Of a stretch of DNA of 64,000 nucleotides, positions 1 through 19,012 are shown one piece after another (position 1 is the stretch's first letter; the number at the start of each line of letters is the position of its first letter). This DNA is from Flavihumibacter profundi (lineage in GTDB: Bacteria; Bacteroidota; Bacteroidia; Chitinophagales; Chitinophagaceae): contig NZ_JAIQXE010000002.1 of the NCBI RefSeq assembly GCF_020076305.1, positions 434,001 through 498,000 on the forward strand, written 5' to 3'. A program made the position numbers and the translations under genes. A model generated the notes under the pieces. The model did not search any database, was not told the DNA's origin, and worked only from the letters and a program-made list of their open reading frames with translations.

Positions 1-893
1 AGTTTTCCTGTTGTAGTAAATATCGTTATTCCATCATGATTAAGCATGGATTTTGCAACAGAGGCATAAGATTTTAAGTTGATTGATGTTTCATTCGTTT
101 TGTTATCTTCTGCCTCCTTAATTAAGAATTCAAAATCAATTGGCTCAATCAAATAAATCCCGCCTTCCGAGGTTATTAATTCCTTTAACTCTTGAATACT
201 ATGTGATTGATAATCAACTACACCTATTAAATTTCCATGACCATCTTTTAGAGCCTCATCAATTACTTTTTCAAAAAATGCCTGTAAATTGACTTGAATC
301 TTTGGGTCGCAATGTTGAGTAATTTGCGACACAACTGATTTTACTTCATTTTGTGAAACATCTGGTGCTTCATCTAGTGTCAAATAAATTATCATTCGTT
401 TTTTAAGACCAACTAATTCTACTGTTTTTTGCCCTATATTTTTGATATATGCGATTTTTCCTTCTTTATAGGTATCTCCTAGACCTAGCTCACCTACTGT
501 TTGCTTATATAGGCTTGGACTTGTTTCACTCATTTCTGCACTTGTAATTCCATACTTCATATTATCTCCGCTCACTTCTATAAATATTACCCAACTATCT
601 TTAGCTAAAGGGGCGCAAAGTTTTAAAGCATTCCTGAACTCATCTTTGCTTAATTTTGTTACTTTAATTGTCAACTCTCGATTTGGTATAGATTCGAAAT
701 ATTTCAAATTGTCGGTAATAATGATTTCAGGAAAAAGAGTACGACCCTCTTCTTGGTAATCTGAAATGGAATTGATTATTTCTAAAATTCCATATTTCAG
801 ATGTTCCGAGGTTGCAAATTGCTCCTCGTAAAGAAAATCACCAATTGAAGATAGAATATTACTTCTTAAAGAGGCTTTCGTTAGTTCCTGCAT
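1..893 (-). CDS. Possible DAC-like (diadenylate cyclase-fold) protein, C-terminus cut by window edge
   Basis: An open frame of 297 codons starts at ATG 893 and runs off the window; no stop is seen. The product is soluble, with no signal peptide or membrane segment. Near the visible end a helix-rich stretch is followed by a strand reading DGITIFTTTGK, which resembles the Asp-Gly-Ala strand of DisA_N/DAC domains and the DAC-like sensor families (DACNV and relatives) described near conflict systems. That likeness is by eye only and the catalytic half would lie outside the window. It follows the GHKL ATPase gene with a 77-bp gap on the same strand and is probably the third gene of that operon. 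It could equally be an unrelated regulator. Confidence 0.55.
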   Translation of the reverse strand, partial: MQELTKASLRSNILSSIGDFLYEEQFATSEHLKYGILEIINSISDYQEEGRTLFPEIIITDNLKYFESIPNRELTIKVTKLSKDEFRNALKLCAPLAKDSWVIFIEVSGDNMKYGITSAEMSETSPSLYKQTVGELGLGDTYKEGKIAYIKNIGQKTVELVGLKKRMIIYLTLDEAPDVSQNEVKSVVSQITQHCDPKIQVNLQAFFEKVIDEALKDGHGNLIGVVDYQSHSIQELKELITSEGGIYLIEPIDFEFLIKEAEDNKTNETSINLKSYASVAKSMLNHDGITIFTTTGK

Positions 894-970
894 ACTTTGA
901 AAATGGAGACATTTTTATTTATGATAGTCTTAAATGTAGTGAAAAAACTGCAAGACATATATAGTTATTT

Positions 971-3016
971 CTATATCCCAAGTCTTTCAAAAAGAATTCT
1001 ATTTCGCTTTTTGGCATCAAATAAAACTTTTTCAAAAGGCAAGACTTCTATGTAGGCGTTATAATATGCCGTTTTGAATTTATAATATCCTAGGCCGTCT
1101 GGAGTTTTTAAAAATTCTCTCTTTTTCAAAATATTTTCTAAGGATGGTGTTATATCACATACTATGTAAACATAGAATGGGGTATTTACAGTTACTGTTA
1201 TAGTTCTGCCTGTTCTGCTTTTTACTTTACCATTTAGTAATTCATCAATATATTTTTCAACCTGATCCAATGGGTTTTTTTTGGGATCATTATCTTGGTA
1301 ATCGGTGCGTTGCGGTTTTTTAAATTCGACAATAGTGAAAGATTGATGTGGATGAAGCTGTTCCTCTGAAAAAGCTAATGCGTCATTGTAAATAAGTAAA
1401 TCTACTCTGTCCTGATTTTGTGATTGCAATTGTTTTATTTGATCAAATCTTTTATCGGAGGCCAAAAATGAGTGATATGTTAATCTTTCATCTAATAGCC
1501 AAAGATTTTGCTTATCAGGCGGTATTTCATCTGTACTACTTCTAATTGGAAAAAATATACTATGAATTATATCTTCATCGGAAAATTTATTTTCATTATT
1601 AAGCTGTAATAAGTTTTCTAGCAACTCAATGACTGATTTTCGATGAACGACATATCTAGCTAAATCCGATTTGCCTAACTCGTTAAATTCTGTTAAAAAT
1701 CTTTTATATCGTTCTTTGTATCCTTCAAGATTTTGAATATCCTTCGACTCCTCCAATAACTCACTGCGGGTTTCCTTTATCTCAATTTTCCAATCCGCTT
1801 CAATTTTGTACAAAGCTATATCTAACTTGTCTACCGTTAAATTAGGCGGCAACCTTCTTATTTCCTCTGGTTTATGATGCCAGACTGCTCGATATTGGGG
1901 CATTTCGTCATGAACGGTTGGCATATATTTAGTTACTTTCTTTTCCCTGACATCATTTAAGTAGTCTTCTAGTAGAACTTCAATACAATTAATTGCTTTC
2001 TTTCGAATTTGGGACAATGTAATTACATCGTCTTCTTCATCTTCTTCATCTTCCCCATTTGGAAAATCAAAACCAATTCGTTCTTGGTTAACAGTTTCAT
2101 CAAATAATTGGCTGACAATATATATTTGGTAATAAATATTTTGTGTTTCAATAGTAACTGGATATTTCCCCAAGTCAACAATTCTATTTACTAAAGCGTC
2201 TTCCTTTACGGCACGGTTGTGTGCGCAGTAATATATTTTATGGCTTTGAGCTTTAGAGGATCTTGTTAGATATAGTTCAAAGCTATATTCGTTTATTTCG
2301 AAAGTTGTTGATTTTATTTCTTCTTTAAAATAAGTATTGAAATGTGTTTGGCAGTTTACTTCTATATTATTTTGATTTATTACACGGATGTTGGGTGCAG
2401 CGTTTCGTATAAAGTATAACTGAAAGTGTGTTATTATTTCTCTGGCTATCGATTCCAATTGCCTAGGAACATGCTTTTGATATTCATCGCGATATTCATA
2501 TAGTGTAATTTTTGTTCCAATTTTTCTAAACTCTGGTGCATCGTATTGATCAAAATTGTGATAGCCTTCTTTTGTTGATTTAAACTCAAACTTTCTAACC
2601 ATTTTTGTGTTTCCGTTATTAAAGCAACTATCTACGATCATCATGCTGAATGCTTTAATGCAAATGAATCTTCCAACACCCTTGCCTCCAATTTCAAATT
2701 TGTGATCTGTATCAGATTCTACAAAAGAGTTTAGATTTTCATCATCCATTCCTATTCCATTATCTATTATTTCAAATGAGATAATGGGATAACTGTCAAT
2801 TTGCTCCATTGTTGATAGCGTGTCTTCATTTCCGCGCCGAAGAAGATTTATGGTTATTTCGCCTTCATTTTGTAAATAGTTCTTTTTTTTTGCATCTTCA
2901 ATTGCATGTATAGAATTACTAATGACCTCAAATAAGGGCATTAGTGCCTTGGTCTTGGGTAGACTGGTATTTCTTACCTTATTTTTGATGTTACTTTTTG
3001 GATGAAGATCTTTCAT
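971..3016 (-). CDS. GHKL (Hsp90-like) ATPase fused to a PD-(D/E)XK-like nuclease domain
   Basis: The 681-residue protein has an N-terminal GHKL ATP-binding fold: an N-box at about residues 30-40 (E30, N34), DNGIG at 85-89 and GGKGVG at 110-115. The middle is mixed and helical. The C-terminal part has the layout of a PD-(D/E)XK nuclease: D539 in VDLLIY, then E564-F-K566 in IVEFKKP, 25 residues apart. There is no signal or membrane segment, so it should act in the cytoplasm. ATP-driven clamp closure and DNA cleavage would be expected from the two folds, but activity is inferred. The start ATG lies 13 bases after the stop of the MmeI-like gene, which argues for one transcript and a defence role. 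The ORF is intact. Confidence 0.75.
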   Translation of the reverse strand: MKDLHPKSNIKNKVRNTSLPKTKALMPLFEVISNSIHAIEDAKKKNYLQNEGEITINLLRRGNEDTLSTMEQIDSYPIISFEIIDNGIGMDDENLNSFVESDTDHKFEIGGKGVGRFICIKAFSMMIVDSCFNNGNTKMVRKFEFKSTKEGYHNFDQYDAPEFRKIGTKITLYEYRDEYQKHVPRQLESIAREIITHFQLYFIRNAAPNIRVINQNNIEVNCQTHFNTYFKEEIKSTTFEINEYSFELYLTRSSKAQSHKIYYCAHNRAVKEDALVNRIVDLGKYPVTIETQNIYYQIYIVSQLFDETVNQERIGFDFPNGEDEEDEEDDVITLSQIRKKAINCIEVLLEDYLNDVREKKVTKYMPTVHDEMPQYRAVWHHKPEEIRRLPPNLTVDKLDIALYKIEADWKIEIKETRSELLEESKDIQNLEGYKERYKRFLTEFNELGKSDLARYVVHRKSVIELLENLLQLNNENKFSDEDIIHSIFFPIRSSTDEIPPDKQNLWLLDERLTYHSFLASDKRFDQIKQLQSQNQDRVDLLIYNDALAFSEEQLHPHQSFTIVEFKKPQRTDYQDNDPKKNPLDQVEKYIDELLNGKVKSRTGRTITVTVNTPFYVYIVCDITPSLENILKKREFLKTPDGLGYYKFKTAYYNAYIEVLPFEKVLFDAKKRNRILFERLGI

Positions 3017-3029
3017 GGTTCAATTATTG

Positions 3030-5840
3030 TTAGATATCTTTTCGGCTTTTTATTTCATTTTTTGCATATAGTCCGGAAGTATATTTATCATAAAGCTCAA
3101 ATAGGTATTCTATCCTCTTTGTTTCATTGGGGAATGGCTGGGTCCTATATGCCAGATCAATGGCCTTATCAAGCTGCTGATGGGCTTTAATTAAATCTGG
3201 TGGCATAGTGTTAGGGTCATAAAGGTCAGCTAAGCTACTTTGGGGATATATGGCTCTAGCATCCAATACCCCCTGAGCTGCTTTCTCTATTGCATCTTTT
3301 TGCTTTTCAGAAGGGCTTTCTGGCCAAGGAAAATTATTGTAGACAATTCCATTTGAATATTGCACATCACTTTTTAACCTTCCAGTAACTGATTTAAGCC
3401 AAACATTATGCATAATAGAATTAAGTATGCCAAAATGATATAAAGTTGCATTAGGCAGCATGTAATTCTTATTGCTGCTAATTACATTTGCATTTATATA
3501 TCCGATAGGCAGGTATTTTCTTCGCTCAGACGATACTTCAGGAATCACCAAATAGTCACTTCCGGTGTGCCTAATTTCATCAAATAAAGTTGGTGTACTT
3601 GCTTTTTTAATTGTAGCTGCTTTGGGGCTTAATAATCTATACTCTTTAACTTTTTGAACCCTATCATACACCATAGGAAGGCTCTTTAACTCAGCCGGAG
3701 AAATATCCTTTAACCACAAACACCATCTTTCTGTGCTATTGATAAACTCAGTAGATCCAATAAATCTTTTAAACCAGATTGCAGCACCCGGCTCTTTTAT
3801 AAGGAATTCTGCTTTCTCATCACTATTGAAAAGAAAGTTCCCATTATCAGTTGGCTGGTTCCCTTTAACTAATTCTGGCACATTGCAAATTGGCTGCTTT
3901 CTTCTCACTACAAATTCATCTTTGCCCTCTACAAGATAAGGATTGATATTTTTTACCTTGAATTCATGAGGTTCGCTGATCAAATTGGCATACTCAAATA
4001 TTTTCTTCTCAAGGATATTGAAGTTTGAGAATCCAACTATTACCACATGCACCGCTGCATTACCCTTTGCCTCATTTCCCCATCTAAATGTTTTATGTGC
4101 AAAATGAATTTTAATACCAAATTTATTGAATAGGGTGCCCCATAGCATTGCAACCTGCTCGCCTTGAGTAATTGAATTTGTACTTACAAAAGCTGTGACA
4201 GTTTTAAGGTCCTTAGTAAAATCATTAGTTAATTTCATGTACTGCGCTGCCCTTATGTACCATGCAGATACATAATCCAATGCACCAGAAGGAGAGATAC
4301 CGTTAAAAACCAATTCCATGTCTTTCTTTTGCTCTGCATTCTGATATTGCTTTCCTAAAAATGGAGGGTTACCTAAAATATAATTGAATTTATTATCACC
4401 CATTTCCCAAGGCATGGGATCTATCAAGCTCTGCCAATCAGTTCTAAGGGCATTCCCGTGCTTAATGCTGGCAGATTTCCTTAAAGGAAGCCTTACATAG
4501 TACTCGCCAAATGTATTGGAAACAAGCTGGTTCATTTGGTGATCCATCAACCACATACTAACGGTAGCAATTTGAGCAGGAAACTCTTCATACTCAATCC
4601 CATAAAACTGATCCACGTCACATTTGATCAGATACCCAACATCCATTCTTGCACTCTTAAGCACTTCATTACGGTAACCCTCCAACTTTAATAATTGTTT
4701 TATAATATCTATCTCCAATAGCCTTAATTCCCGGTATGCAATTATCAAGAAGTTACCGCATCCACATGCCGGATCAAGAAATTTAAGCTTACTTATTTTA
4801 TCATGGAATTTCTGGAGCTTAGCTTTGTTACCCTTTACCTGATCATATTCCTGCCATAGATCATCAAGGAAAAGTGGCTTAATCAACTTAAGGATGTTTT
4901 TCTCACTGGTATAATGAGCACCAAGCGACCTTCTTGTCTTCTCATCCATTACACTTTGGAATAATGAGCCAAATATCGCTGGAGATATTCGCCCCCAGTC
5001 GAGAAGACAACACTCAATTAATGCTTTCCTCATTTCACTATCAAATCCGGCAAGTGGTAATCTTTCCTCAAATAACTTACCATTTACATAAGGGAAGGCA
5101 CCCAAGCTCTCATCCAGATTTTTTAGCCTATTGGCCTCAGGGGTATTTAGGACGTTAAAGAGAGCATCAATGTGCATGGCTAGGTCAGAGCCATCCTGAT
5201 TGGTTTTGAGGTCGATATAGTCGTGAAAAATGCCCCTCTCGAATATGCTAGTATCATCAGCGAATAGGCAGAACAGCAATCTTACCAGATACAGCTCCAA
5301 TTGATGCCCAGTGTAACCAATTGCCTTCAGCTTATCATGGAGTTTACCCATCAGCTCAGCAGCCTCAATATTTACTGGATCTTGATCTTTATAGGTTCTT
5401 TTTTGATACCCGGCTATAAAACCAAACAGGTGAACATGATCTACCAGAGTATCCAGTTTAAATTCCTGCTTAGTATTTTCCTCCAGATCATACAACCTGA
5501 ACCTTTCAAAATCACTAACAAGGATGTATCGGGGTAACTCCTTTTCAGTTAGTCCGGGAAAATAGTCCTTTGCTTGCTTATAGGCTCTGTCCAGATCCTT
5601 CCCCCTGCTCTTATGTTCAACCAGTATCATTCCTTTCCACAATAGGTCTATAAAGCCTGTTTTGGCATCAATCTTCTTAACCTGCTGCTCAAAGGTTGCT
5701 ACTCGCCTCCTGCTAATTCCATAAATGTTGAAGAAACCATCCCAGAAACTCTTAGCTTCGGCATCCTCGCTTACTTCATCTTTCCATTCGTTGCTAAATG
5801 TTGATGCTCGACTTTTTATTTCATTCCAGCTAAGAGGCAT
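3030..5840 (-). CDS. MmeI-like type IIG/IIL restriction-modification enzyme (nuclease and DNA methyltransferase in one chain)
   Basis: A 936-residue protein with the MmeI layout. The N-terminal nuclease motif is D65-x9-E75-H-K77, the same spacing as D70-x9-E80-x-K82 of MmeI. A helical spacer follows, then a class I SAM methyltransferase with motif I LDPACGCGNF (D356) and the amino-methyltransferase motif IV NPPF (N491), then a target-recognition region and a C-terminal helical part. NPPF predicts N6-adenine methylation. All key residues are present, so both activities should be intact; the recognition site cannot be read by eye. It is the first large gene of an operon with the ATPase-nuclease and the DAC-like gene. 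About 216 bases without a strong promoter match lie upstream. Confidence 0.9.
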   Translation of the reverse strand: MPLSWNEIKSRASTFSNEWKDEVSEDAEAKSFWDGFFNIYGISRRRVATFEQQVKKIDAKTGFIDLLWKGMILVEHKSRGKDLDRAYKQAKDYFPGLTEKELPRYILVSDFERFRLYDLEENTKQEFKLDTLVDHVHLFGFIAGYQKRTYKDQDPVNIEAAELMGKLHDKLKAIGYTGHQLELYLVRLLFCLFADDTSIFERGIFHDYIDLKTNQDGSDLAMHIDALFNVLNTPEANRLKNLDESLGAFPYVNGKLFEERLPLAGFDSEMRKALIECCLLDWGRISPAIFGSLFQSVMDEKTRRSLGAHYTSEKNILKLIKPLFLDDLWQEYDQVKGNKAKLQKFHDKISKLKFLDPACGCGNFLIIAYRELRLLEIDIIKQLLKLEGYRNEVLKSARMDVGYLIKCDVDQFYGIEYEEFPAQIATVSMWLMDHQMNQLVSNTFGEYYVRLPLRKSASIKHGNALRTDWQSLIDPMPWEMGDNKFNYILGNPPFLGKQYQNAEQKKDMELVFNGISPSGALDYVSAWYIRAAQYMKLTNDFTKDLKTVTAFVSTNSITQGEQVAMLWGTLFNKFGIKIHFAHKTFRWGNEAKGNAAVHVVIVGFSNFNILEKKIFEYANLISEPHEFKVKNINPYLVEGKDEFVVRRKQPICNVPELVKGNQPTDNGNFLFNSDEKAEFLIKEPGAAIWFKRFIGSTEFINSTERWCLWLKDISPAELKSLPMVYDRVQKVKEYRLLSPKAATIKKASTPTLFDEIRHTGSDYLVIPEVSSERRKYLPIGYINANVISSNKNYMLPNATLYHFGILNSIMHNVWLKSVTGRLKSDVQYSNGIVYNNFPWPESPSEKQKDAIEKAAQGVLDARAIYPQSSLADLYDPNTMPPDLIKAHQQLDKAIDLAYRTQPFPNETKRIEYLFELYDKYTSGLYAKNEIKSRKDI

Positions 5841-6056: not shown

Positions 6057-6698
6057 TTAATAGCCTCCCTTTTCATTTAATAGTTCATATTGTTTGATAT
6101 GTAATTCATATCTCTTATTTTCACTAACCATCATACTGTTAAGCTCATAAACAAGTTTATCGGTATCTTCTTCTAAATACTTATAATCTTTTTTAGGCTT
6201 ATTTTTTCTATCTCGATTCTTGACTATTAGCAATGCTTCCTTTAATTCAAGCTTAAACTCTTGTTCAACAATATTCATTATATAGCCATAATAATCTGCT
6301 AGTAGCACATGGTCAAAAGCATTTCTTGGAACATCATAATCATGAACATCAGGAAAAACAAAATCCCCTCGACTATTCCTCCAAGGGTGGGCAATAACTT
6401 GATTTCGAAAAGTTCGCAATTGGCTCCATTTATTTATTCTTCTAAATAATGGTTTACTACAATTTTTAACACTTGAAACTCTTGCTCTATAAAAAGGTTC
6501 AGCCCTTTGGAAAAAATATTCCTCAAATTCCTGTCGAAATACTTGACTTTCTAAGATTATATGTTGAAGTAATATTTCATAGAATAAAGTTTTTGTATCA
6601 ACATTACGCTCATCAGCTTCTATCAATAATCCATTTATTGCTTGTATGGACTTGTTACATTTGAAAAATATAATCAAAGACTCATGTATTTTTTTCAT
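6057..6698 (-). CDS. Unknown helical protein with HEPN-like RNxxxAH motif
   Basis: A 213-residue, mostly helical protein. Residues reading RTFRNQVIAHPWR contain R-N-x3-A-H, which fits the R-polar-x(3-5)-H signature of HEPN ribonuclease-type domains seen in abortive-infection proteins and toxins. The C-terminal third is charged and probably coiled. No signal peptide or membrane segment. It is the last gene of a four-gene operon, 12 bases after the preceding stop, behind three proteins with membrane segments. A role as the effector of that set is a reasonable guess. HEPN assignment rests on one motif and helical content. Confidence 0.6.
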   Translation of the reverse strand: MKKIHESLIIFFKCNKSIQAINGLLIEADERNVDTKTLFYEILLQHIILESQVFRQEFEEYFFQRAEPFYRARVSSVKNCSKPLFRRINKWSQLRTFRNQVIAHPWRNSRGDFVFPDVHDYDVPRNAFDHVLLADYYGYIMNIVEQEFKLELKEALLIVKNRDRKNKPKKDYKYLEEDTDKLVYELNSMMVSENKRYELHIKQYELLNEKGGY

Positions 6699-17488: not shown

Positions 17489-18718
17489 TTAGTTTCCTTT
17501 TTTTCTTGCTTCTTCCAGTTTGTCCCTTAATCCTTGCATGTCCTGACTGATTTTCAAATCTGAAACTACTGCATATTGGGCCGTTATTTTTGTACTCGTA
17601 TGGCCTAATATTTTACTGATTGTTTCCAATCCAATTCCATTTGCCAGTGCAATTGTAGTTGCAAATGTTCTTCTGCCCACATGGGAGGTTAGGCTTTTAT
17701 TGATTTCACACAGTTCAGCTATTTCATGTAAGTAGGCATTGAATTTCTGTAGGCTATAAAAATCAAAGAGTGGTTTATTTGAATTTGCATCTTTATTATT
17801 ATACCGATCTATAATTTCCTCCGCCTCAAATAGTAGTGGTATAGCTGCCCTTACGTCTGTCTTCTTCCTTCTTGTAATAATCCATTTAGTACCATCAATA
17901 CCCGGTGCTATATTGCCGAATGTTAATTTAGCCATATCGCTATAGGATAAGCCAGTATAGCATTGGAAAAGAAATAAATCTCTTACTAAGGTTAAACGTT
18001 CCAATCGGAATTCCTTCTTTTTTATAATGGTTAATTCATGGAGAGTAAGGTATATACGGTCTACATCCTTGTAGGATGCTTTAAAATGATCGAATGGGGA
18101 ATCTTCTAACCATTTGTTCCGAATACCTAGCCCCAATATCTTTTTAAGATTTTTTAGGTATTTGGTAGCTGTATTATGTTCATTGCCGTCATGGTTTTTA
18201 AGATAAAAATCAAAATCAGCCATAAACTTAATGGTGAGGTCCTTAAGTCGTATATCCTTTTTTTGGTAGGTAAGTGCTATAAATGCCTCCAATTTCCGAC
18301 GTAGGATATCATATTTCTCGAATGTTGAAGGAGCATAGTCGGTTCCGATTCTTGCTTGAAAATCATTATTATGGTATTCCACTAGCTCTAATAATGTGTG
18401 GTTAGCCGTGTCTTTCCCAAAAAACCTATCAATAAGAATTTCTAGGTTCAGATCTCCTTCTTTAAGCATTTCTGTAAATAGCTCCATTAACCTAGCCTTG
18501 GTATGCGCAATGTAATTGTTGATTTGAACCGCATCCTCTTTAGTACCCCTAACCAATCCTTTTTGCTGATCCCATCTATTGGATATTATTGCAAACCCGG
18601 TAGAAATGTTTTTTCTGCTGGTCTCATAACTTATACGCAGATATATGGGGGTTTCACCTTTTTTGTTGGTTTTAGCCTTAAAGAGCCAGAAAAGTATATT
18701 AAAATTATTTTTTGCCAT
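17489..18718 (-). CDS. Tyrosine recombinase / integrase (IntDOT-like)
   Basis: A 409-residue integrase with an N-terminal arm-binding domain (1-90), a SAM-like core-binding domain (about 100-210) and the catalytic domain. Catalytic residues seen: H346-x-x-R349 (SHVGRRTF), H373 (LGHTS) and Y382 (AQYA); a Lys in the ITRRKKTD hairpin. The first Arg is replaced by Ser (S258 in CYTGLSYSD), as is known for IntDOT of CTnDOT. The gene is transcribed away from tRNA-Asn, with GGTAACC repeats between them, so it should catalyse integration into that tRNA. It is intact. Confidence 0.92.
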   Translation of the reverse strand: MAKNNFNILFWLFKAKTNKKGETPIYLRISYETSRKNISTGFAIISNRWDQQKGLVRGTKEDAVQINNYIAHTKARLMELFTEMLKEGDLNLEILIDRFFGKDTANHTLLELVEYHNNDFQARIGTDYAPSTFEKYDILRRKLEAFIALTYQKKDIRLKDLTIKFMADFDFYLKNHDGNEHNTATKYLKNLKKILGLGIRNKWLEDSPFDHFKASYKDVDRIYLTLHELTIIKKKEFRLERLTLVRDLFLFQCYTGLSYSDMAKLTFGNIAPGIDGTKWIITRRKKTDVRAAIPLLFEAEEIIDRYNNKDANSNKPLFDFYSLQKFNAYLHEIAELCEINKSLTSHVGRRTFATTIALANGIGLETISKILGHTSTKITAQYAVVSDLKISQDMQGLRDKLEEARKKGN

Positions 18719-18938
18719 GTTAGCCTTGTTTTTGGGAAATTAAATGGGGTGGGGTTTAGAGTTATTTTTCAAACTCAATACAGAAAAGGGTTTCCGAGGA
18801 AAAAGTGGTAACCTTTATTTTGAATGATGGTAACCTTTTTGGTAACCTCTCCTGACGATATTGGGGTGATTTCAGGAATGCTCGCAAACAAAAAGTCCTC
18901 GCAAAACTTACGTTCTGCAAGGACTTTTATCTTTTCCG
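18719..18938. other. Attachment-site region with GGTAACC direct repeats
   Basis: The gap between the integrase start and tRNA-Asn holds three exact copies of GGTAACC (18807-18813, 18829-18835, 18841-18847), spaced 22 and 12 bases. Each is palindromic apart from the centre. Position and repetition fit arm-type binding sites for the integrase or its excision factor. The tRNA terminator (18891-18929) also lies here. The crossover core is expected in the tRNA 3' end (near 18939-18960) but was not proven. Confidence 0.5.
18891..18929 (-). terminator. Rho-independent terminator after tRNA-Asn
   Basis: On the minus strand AAGTCCT-x-GCA-x-AAC pairs with GTT-x-TGC-x-AGGACTT, followed by TTT. It lies 10 bases beyond the tRNA 3' end and should end its transcript. 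It is on the element side of the tRNA. Confidence 0.7.
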
Positions 18939-19012
18939 CTCCCCCTGCTGGACTTGAACCAGCGACCCTCTGATTAACAGTCAGATGCTCTAACCAACTG
19001 AGCTAAGGAGGA
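18939..19012 (-). tRNA. tRNA-Asn(GTT)
   Basis: A 74-nt cloverleaf: acceptor TCCTCCT pairs with AGGGGGA (one G-T), anticodon stem TCTGA/TCAGA with loop CTGTTAA, anticodon GTT, and T-arm with GGTTCAAGTCC. Discriminator base G; CCA is not encoded. Its 3' end faces the integrase, as expected of an integration target. Confidence 0.95.

Follow-up and report, generated by a model that had tools for sequence, protein, structure and literature searches.

Introduction

Diadenylate cyclases (DACs) were only recently validated in phage defense, namely in DS-2, which is described as a three-gene cyclic oligonucleotide-based antiphage signaling system (CBASS) with an added diadenylate cyclase, predicted catalytic residues being tested there as essential (DefensePredictor, PMC13092281). 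Nucleic-acid binding has been proposed for inactive domains of the HEPN superfamily (PMC3710099). The paraMORC3 proteins, prevalent in proteobacteria and Bacteroidetes, have a GHKL ATPase at the N-terminus and an E-D-ExK nuclease at the C-terminus; some of them stand alone, without conserved neighbors, and paraMORC families are often found in restriction-modification neighborhoods (Iyer, Abhiman and Aravind 2008, PMC2292703). In this study we analyze a 64,000-nucleotide stretch of the Flavihumibacter profundi genome (G000:C2:434001-498000, referred to as the window). At its left end, three genes in a row encode an MmeI-like restriction-modification enzyme, a GHKL ATPase with a nuclease motif, and a DAC-like protein; a fourth, HEPN-HEAT-like gene was read from the DNA left of the window (Table 1).

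According to sequence comparison, this four-gene stretch appears to consist of separable defense modules: a type IIG enzyme, a paraMORC3-type ATPase-nuclease, and a DAC-like/HEPN-HEAT pair. The novelty is the pair; genes 1 and 2 are of already known kinds. We found no description of the pair in the titles and opening abstracts of the open-access papers listed by our literature searches.

Results and Discussion

The DAC-like/HEPN-HEAT gene pair

The genome_contigs and viral_contigs collections were scanned with three proteins of the fourth-gene family, which yielded 41 and 5 loci, respectively. A close relative of the fourth gene is present at 15 other loci, that is, 12 of the 41, one of the 5, and two plasmids (from Vibrio sp. 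dhg and Agrobacterium). The DAC-like gene lies directly upstream of the HEPN-HEAT gene at 14 of these 15 loci, and at the fifteenth the HEPN-HEAT protein is fused to a caspase-like domain. The spacing of the two genes ranges from −11 to +4 bases at 15 loci, including that of the window (−1). The pair occurs in Bacteroidota and proteobacteria, with Flavobacterium, Mariniflexile, Chryseobacterium, Mucilaginibacter, Rhodoferax, Vibrio, Agrobacterium and two Deltaproteobacteria among its hosts.

An all-against-all comparison of open reading frames (ORFs) from the 14 pair loci showed that only the DAC-like and HEPN-HEAT genes are present in all of them, the next clusters covering at most three loci. 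Matrices of pairwise identity, one for each of the two proteins, are correlated at r=0.95, or 0.93 when two near-identical Vibrio loci are omitted (0 of 5000 permutations in each case), a correlation for which shared ancestry alone could suffice. When searched from the DAC side, both plasmid matches are paired; HEPN-HEAT neighborhoods were examined for 6 of 71 plasmid records (two paired, four solo). We consider the pair to be almost certainly a real conserved unit.

Several loci are short, and absence of a gene means here and below its absence within the stretch examined. Neither MmeI-like nor GHKL genes were found at any of the 14 other pair loci, and there is little doubt that the pair is independent of both.

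Of 395 genomes from the phylum of the host, two were found to have the DAC-like gene: that of the window and one with a broken remnant. The scan of genome_contigs with a single DAC-like sequence and that of viral_contigs with the DAC-like alignment gave no relative; these two seeds were insensitive, since the fourth-gene scan later revealed 12 DAC-like genes in genome_contigs. A Vibrio DAC-like protein had no match in the phage collection. No PADLOC model matched the DAC-like or HEPN-HEAT proteins, and sequence and profile searches of the PDB with the DAC-like, HEPN-HEAT and GHKL families provided no convincing match.

At three Vibrio loci only (L019, L034, L035), the pair is followed almost without a gap by a gene for a 204-aa protein with membrane-helix-like stretches and no Pfam match. 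A scan for promoters and terminators around the pair produced signals no better than those in shuffled sequences.

Structure and motifs of the DAC-like protein

The protein was modeled with AlphaFold2 using a Flavobacterium homologue (locus L025, 55% identical to the protein of the window) and an alignment of 12 homologues; the mean predicted local distance difference test score (pLDDT) was 81.7. VIA-align assigned residues 198-354 of the model to the DAC fold with Z 9.9 (7dg0, 121 residues, root-mean-square deviation (rmsd) 2.8). The first 39 rows of its output had Z from 8.1 to 9.9; 38 of these bore the title of a DAC protein, the exception being 2fb5, a hypothetical protein. After them, Z dropped to 2.5 for the first unrelated structure. 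The top Foldseek match of the model was DisA (3c1y, E 8.8e-4). In hhalign comparison with five true DACs, the DG and R-x-R positions were in register. The C-terminal domain of gene 3 is modeled as a diadenylate-cyclase fold with altered motifs. The initial annotation had noted a DAC-like strand; the likeness was borne out, whereas its extent had been underestimated, as the model comprises a whole DAC-like domain. The first 190 residues of the model had no convincing structural match.

The motifs DG-I, GGAR and S-x-DG are kept in all 15 DAC-like members. The canonical DGA and RHR are present in the five true DACs; in their place, the DAC-like members have DGI and R-[SRT]-[RK] (15 of 15). The SEExG region corresponds to S[QH]DG, again in 15 of 15, with the correspondence matched by eye. 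The predicted pocket is conserved, yet unlike that of a standard cyclase.

The HEPN-HEAT protein

The fourth-gene family matches PHROG 27609. The L025 homologue (57% identical to the protein of the window) was modeled using an alignment of 33 rows, with mean pLDDT 87.0. Residues 29-161 matched the HEPN domain 2hsb (Z 9.9, rmsd 2.8, 110 aligned residues) and residues 160-414 matched HEAT/importin-like solenoids (Z 7-9.5, often with large rmsd), values which helical models can reach by chance. For this reason, the HEPN assignment rests also on the motif found in relatives. "HEAT-like" is used here as a descriptive term for the helical solenoid.

The HEPN RNase motif, in the form R-N-x5-H, is present in all 39 full-length solo relatives examined (30 from the collection scans, four from plasmids and five from the host's class), where it sits in the region matching 2hsb. 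At the aligned place, the Rx4-6H motif is missing in all 16 paired or fused members, including that of the window. Split or shortened relatives (L059, L062, L070) were excluded from the motif count. A midpoint-rooted tree was built from 45 sequences, among them 20 of the 30 solo relatives from the collection scans; it places the 16 paired or fused members together in a single clade (support 1.0). The motif NFY-x-E is kept in all 45 aligned relatives. Judging from these alignments, the HEPN domain has very likely been inactivated in the paired lineage. In one member (L031), the string RDVLDAH occurs by chance at a place remote from the HEPN part.

The fusion mentioned above was found on a viral contig (L066), where the HEPN-HEAT protein carries an N-terminal caspase-like domain (Peptidase_C14, 1.4e-13). 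The HEPN-HEAT family is present in six of 395 genomes of the host's class, and a DAC-like gene accompanies it in the window's genome only. At L119 (G573), a solo HEPN-HEAT gene with the intact motif RNEFSTAH lies near genes that look phage-like by eye.

Possible role of the pair

The reading that we prefer is that of separable modules in which the pair would act as a HEAT-like sensor whose RNase was replaced by a partner; in our estimate its chances are evenly balanced. The solenoid is taken as the sensor and the DAC-like protein as the output because the solenoid with NFY-x-E is constant and the output part varies. The HEAT-like half would sense infection. In the solo relatives, the killing part would be the built-in HEPN domain with its intact RNase motif. 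In the paired lineage, in which HEPN lost the motif, the output would have moved to a partner, either the DAC-like protein in trans or, in one viral contig, the fused caspase-like protease. Once activated, the DAC-like protein would, through its conserved nucleotide pocket, either use up a nucleotide or produce a signal, and its action would stop the growth of the infected cell. That the DAC-like protein is a swapped output seems to us somewhat less probable than its opposite, our confidence being reduced by the CBASS phospholipase genes near three of the 14 pairs. More tentative is the general notion of a HEAT-like sensor family that swaps outputs modularly between a HEPN RNase, a fused caspase-like protease and a DAC-fold protein in trans, the latter being a new nucleotide-acting effector or a pseudo-cyclase; we regard it as possible but rather doubtful.

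Several observations weigh against the preferred reading. The whole-chain Foldseek superposition of the DAC-like model was poor (template modeling score, TM, 0.24), the hhalign probability against true DACs was 5.3%, which is a weak sequence match, and only one of 12 members matched Pfam DAC (E=0.081). Since RHR is not kept (R-x-[RK]), the DAC-like protein may only bind nucleotide. As the 14 loci share no third gene, the receptor for a signal would have to be unlinked. The superpositions of both helical parts of the HEPN-HEAT model are within the reach of chance. The caspase fusion is known from a single contig and placed outside the DAC-linked group, with low support (0.35). The broken DAC-like remnant from Bacteroidota (L118, G239:C57) has no HEPN-HEAT gene in the 9.6 kb examined. 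The CBASS phospholipase genes near some of the pairs, which favor an accessory role, and one neighbor of a solo relative, all described below, bear on it in the same sense.

Neighboring proteins for the Pfam and PADLOC searches were picked by eye as likely defense genes, and the results demonstrate occurrence, not rate. CBASS phospholipase genes lie near three of the 14 pairs (L020, L028, L035), on the opposite strand, and a CBASS nucleotidyltransferase gene near two (L020, L035). In Vibrio sp. qd031 (L035:2012-6466), a complete CBASS system (phospholipase, nucleotidyltransferase, E1-E2, JAB) is encoded about 2.5 kb from the pair. In Mariniflexile (L027), the pair is followed by a SIR2-Argonaute gene, whose product is 28% identical to that encoded at L066:6015-11275, where the SIR2-Argonaute gene precedes the fusion of the caspase-like domain with inactive HEPN-HEAT. 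The neighbors of the pair at L025 are a type IIG-like methylase, GmrSD and AbiH. At the locus of the window, no CBASS nucleotidyltransferase with a cognate effector was detected by Pfam and PADLOC among the operon proteins and four upstream genes, a search that covered about half of the genes of the mobile element.

The occurrence of CBASS near the pairs fits either a general defense-island setting or an accessory role to CBASS. The latter is the basis of the main rival explanation, by which the pair serves nearby defense, CBASS above all, as an accessory sensor or regulator: the DAC-like protein would bind or make a nucleotide signal and the inactive HEPN would bind RNA, thereby tuning CBASS, Argonaute or restriction systems. 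Besides the CBASS and SIR2-Argonaute genes listed above, it draws on the nucleic-acid binding proposed for inactive HEPN domains (PMC3710099) and on DS-2 itself, a CBASS with an essential DAC, 15 of 30 homologues of its DAC being described as lying with CBASS (PMC13092281). However, the pair has no constant neighbor, a gene of the phospholipase cluster is lacking near 11 of the 14 pairs, the strand of the CBASS genes is opposite to that of the pair, and the caspase fusion speaks for a role in output. We consider an accessory role unlikely, though it deserves to be kept in mind.

An active cyclase producing a c-di-AMP-like (cyclic di-AMP-like) messenger for an unlinked host receptor would agree with the fold and the conserved pocket residues of the DAC-like protein. 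It is nevertheless improbable, given that RHR and DGA are not kept, no receptor gene travels with the pair, and no canonical DAC was found in 13 genomes (the window's genome and 12 congeners, two of the 12 being under 80% complete). The absence of a canonical DAC from these genomes also makes a ready-made c-di-AMP network unlikely here. Slightly less room is left for a toxin-antitoxin arrangement, with one protein poisoning the cell and the other, co-translated one restraining it: the tight gene overlap, the HEPN ancestry and the mobile setting would suit it, but the proteins, with about 350 and 440 aa, are both of considerable size, and the ancestral RNase motif has disappeared.

The MmeI-like and GHKL genes

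Gene 1 encodes a complete type IIG enzyme of the ordinary MmeI type. The five domains that Pfam distinguishes in MmeI (nuclease, helical spacer, methylase, target recognition, C-terminal) follow one another along nearly the whole length of a single chain, the arrangement by which type IIG enzymes of the MmeI kind are recognized. The protein matches MmeI from the PDB (5hr4, E=0, 1123.4 bits) and the PADLOC model REase_MTase_IIG (1226.7 bits), and its nuclease residues D65/E75/K77 and methylase motif NPPF at 491 are intact. MmeI-like genes are present in 25 of 196 related genomes (E<=1e-60). A paralogue with 78% identity is encoded on another contig of the same genome (G000:C4:421621-424425, L106), and no GHKL, DAC-like or HEPN-HEAT gene was found in the surrounding 19 kb. 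This paralogue lies near a gene resembling a resolvase by eye.

Gene 2 fits the paraMORC3 family, its nuclease part being predicted from the motif. The match to HATPase_c (E 0.00015, 22.6 bits) is under the Pfam cut-off of 26.4. In an alignment of 11 proteins, including that of the window, the GHKL motif residues E30, N34, D85, G87, G89, G110, G113 and G115 are invariant, as are E481, E564 and K566 of the nuclease motif E-D-ExK, with D539 nearly so. No PADLOC 2.0 model matched any of 11 family members at E<=0.01. The nuclease and methylase residues of gene 1 reported as intact in the initial annotation were confirmed, D539/E564/K566 of gene 2 are present, and the identities that the annotation gave to genes 1 and 2 were supported.

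The GHKL gene is present in six of the 196 related genomes. Its neighborhoods were examined at 11 other loci, from five other genomes and six of 57 plasmid records, and relatives of the MmeI-like, DAC-like or HEPN-HEAT genes were found at none of them. Other restriction-modification genes lie within 8 kb of the GHKL gene at four of the six plasmid loci (Manganitrophus, Vibrio fluvialis, Rhodococcus, Agrobacterium). On the V. fluvialis plasmid (L012), the GHKL-nuclease gene stands at the end of one same-strand run with type I restriction-modification genes and a Shedu gene, the latter overlapping it by four bases. In Massilia (L038:9671-13196), a solo HEPN-HEAT protein with an intact motif is encoded next to a distant, divergent GHKL-nuclease gene, the one further case observed in which the two families come together, which also speaks against full separation of the modules.

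MmeI-like and GHKL genes occur together in one of the 196 genomes, that of the window. Because of the four plasmid loci, the adjacency of the two genes may reflect a loose association of such ATPases with restriction-modification, though not a fixed set. The two genes are probably independent of each other, with confidence reduced by the restriction-modification genes near the GHKL relatives. A survey of co-occurrence had been proposed in the initial annotation as a check of its suggestion that the three genes of the window are a candidate for a new defense system. In this survey, MmeI-like genes occurred without the others, GHKL genes had other neighbors at 11 of 11 loci, and the DAC-like gene stood with the fourth gene at 14 of 14. 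With the components occurring apart in both the neighborhood and co-occurrence surveys, a single system of MmeI-like, GHKL and DAC-like genes was rejected.

Very improbable, too, is one co-operating system of all four genes, e.g., with restriction first and an abortive response second, as in PrrC with its restriction system: the genes share a strand with gaps of 13, 77 and −1 bases, the pair at L025 likewise has a type IIG-like methylase gene in front of it, and the neighborhoods of paraMORC families in general (PMC2292703), of the plasmid GHKL genes (type I or other restriction-modification genes) and of the GHKL gene at L038 favor it, but the other parts are missing from all 11 GHKL and all 14 pair loci, the MmeI-like and GHKL genes share a single genome, and the GC content at third codon positions (GC3) is 0.37 in the MmeI-like gene versus 0.22-0.26 in the others.

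Locus and mobile element

The initial annotation gave the genes of the window as a three-gene operon on a mobile element. The coordinates of the three ORFs, their common strand and the gaps of 13 and 77 bases were reproduced; the operon is longer than described, as the left edge of the window cuts the third ORF and the fourth gene is beyond it. The stop codon of the DAC-like gene and the ATG of the fourth gene overlap by one base.

The mobile element was confirmed as well. It is delimited by tRNA-Asn, with the adjoining integrase-like ORF, and by the second copy of a 46-base repeat of the tRNA end, located 68 bases past the end of the fourth gene; the integrated element is 20,506 bases long. 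The four-gene stretch is the cargo end of this 20.5-kb element integrated at tRNA-Asn.

Directly upstream of the operon, at 6057-6698 on the minus strand, a 213-aa protein is encoded, which contains FRNQVIAHP, a HEPN-like Rx5H motif, and gives a weak Pfam hint of AbiU2 (E 0.021). Upstream of it are three small genes with membrane-helix-like stretches seen by eye.

Table 1. Features of the four-gene stretch and of the mobile element. Coordinates are those of the window unless preceded by a contig name.
Feature	Coordinates	Strand	Remarks
MmeI-like single-chain type IIG restriction-modification enzyme (gene 1)	3030..5840	-	936 aa
GHKL ATPase with C-terminal nuclease motif, fits paraMORC3 (gene 2)	971..3016	-	681 aa
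DAC-like protein (gene 3)	3..893; whole gene G000:C2:433841-434893	-	350 aa, 297 in the window
HEPN-HEAT-like protein (gene 4)	C2:432546-433841	-	431 aa; wholly outside the window
Tyrosine integrase-like ORF	17489..18718	-	409 aa; assigned by sequence and place beside the tRNA
tRNA-Asn	18938-19012
46-base exact repeat, tRNA-Asn end of the element	18938..18983	-	second copy C2:432432-432477

Comparison with known systems

Genes 1 and 2 conform to described families. The former agrees with the MmeI family in domains, length and active-site residues, with no notable difference found, and the latter shares with paraMORC3, as described in PMC2292703, the N-terminal GHKL and C-terminal E-D-ExK parts, with no difference found either. 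The DAC-like protein shares with CdaA, DacA and DisA the fold predicted for its C-terminal domain and the register of DG and R-x-R, and differs from them by DGI, R-[SRT]-[RK], S[QH]DG and an N-terminal part of about 190 aa. Among the HEPN-HEAT proteins, the solo relatives resemble described HEPN RNases (PMC3710099), their R-N-x5-H being within Rx4-6H, whereas the paired members differ in the loss of the motif and in the DAC-like partner present with all 15 copies.

This contrast would amount to a natural experiment, in which proteins with an active RNase and no such partner stand against relatives whose RNase is inactive and whose partner is DAC-like or caspase-like, and the two small genes would make it directly testable how one scaffold drives different outputs. 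The likeness of the pair to DS-2 (PMC13092281) consists in a DAC-fold protein in a defense setting and in the CBASS phospholipase and nucleotidyltransferase genes near some of the pairs. None of the three genes described for DS-2 codes for a HEPN-HEAT partner, whereas the pair has an altered RHR motif and a constant partner. If our reading is true, a two-gene unit of a DAC-fold protein and an inactivated HEPN-HEAT protein would extend the role of DACs in defense beyond DS-2.

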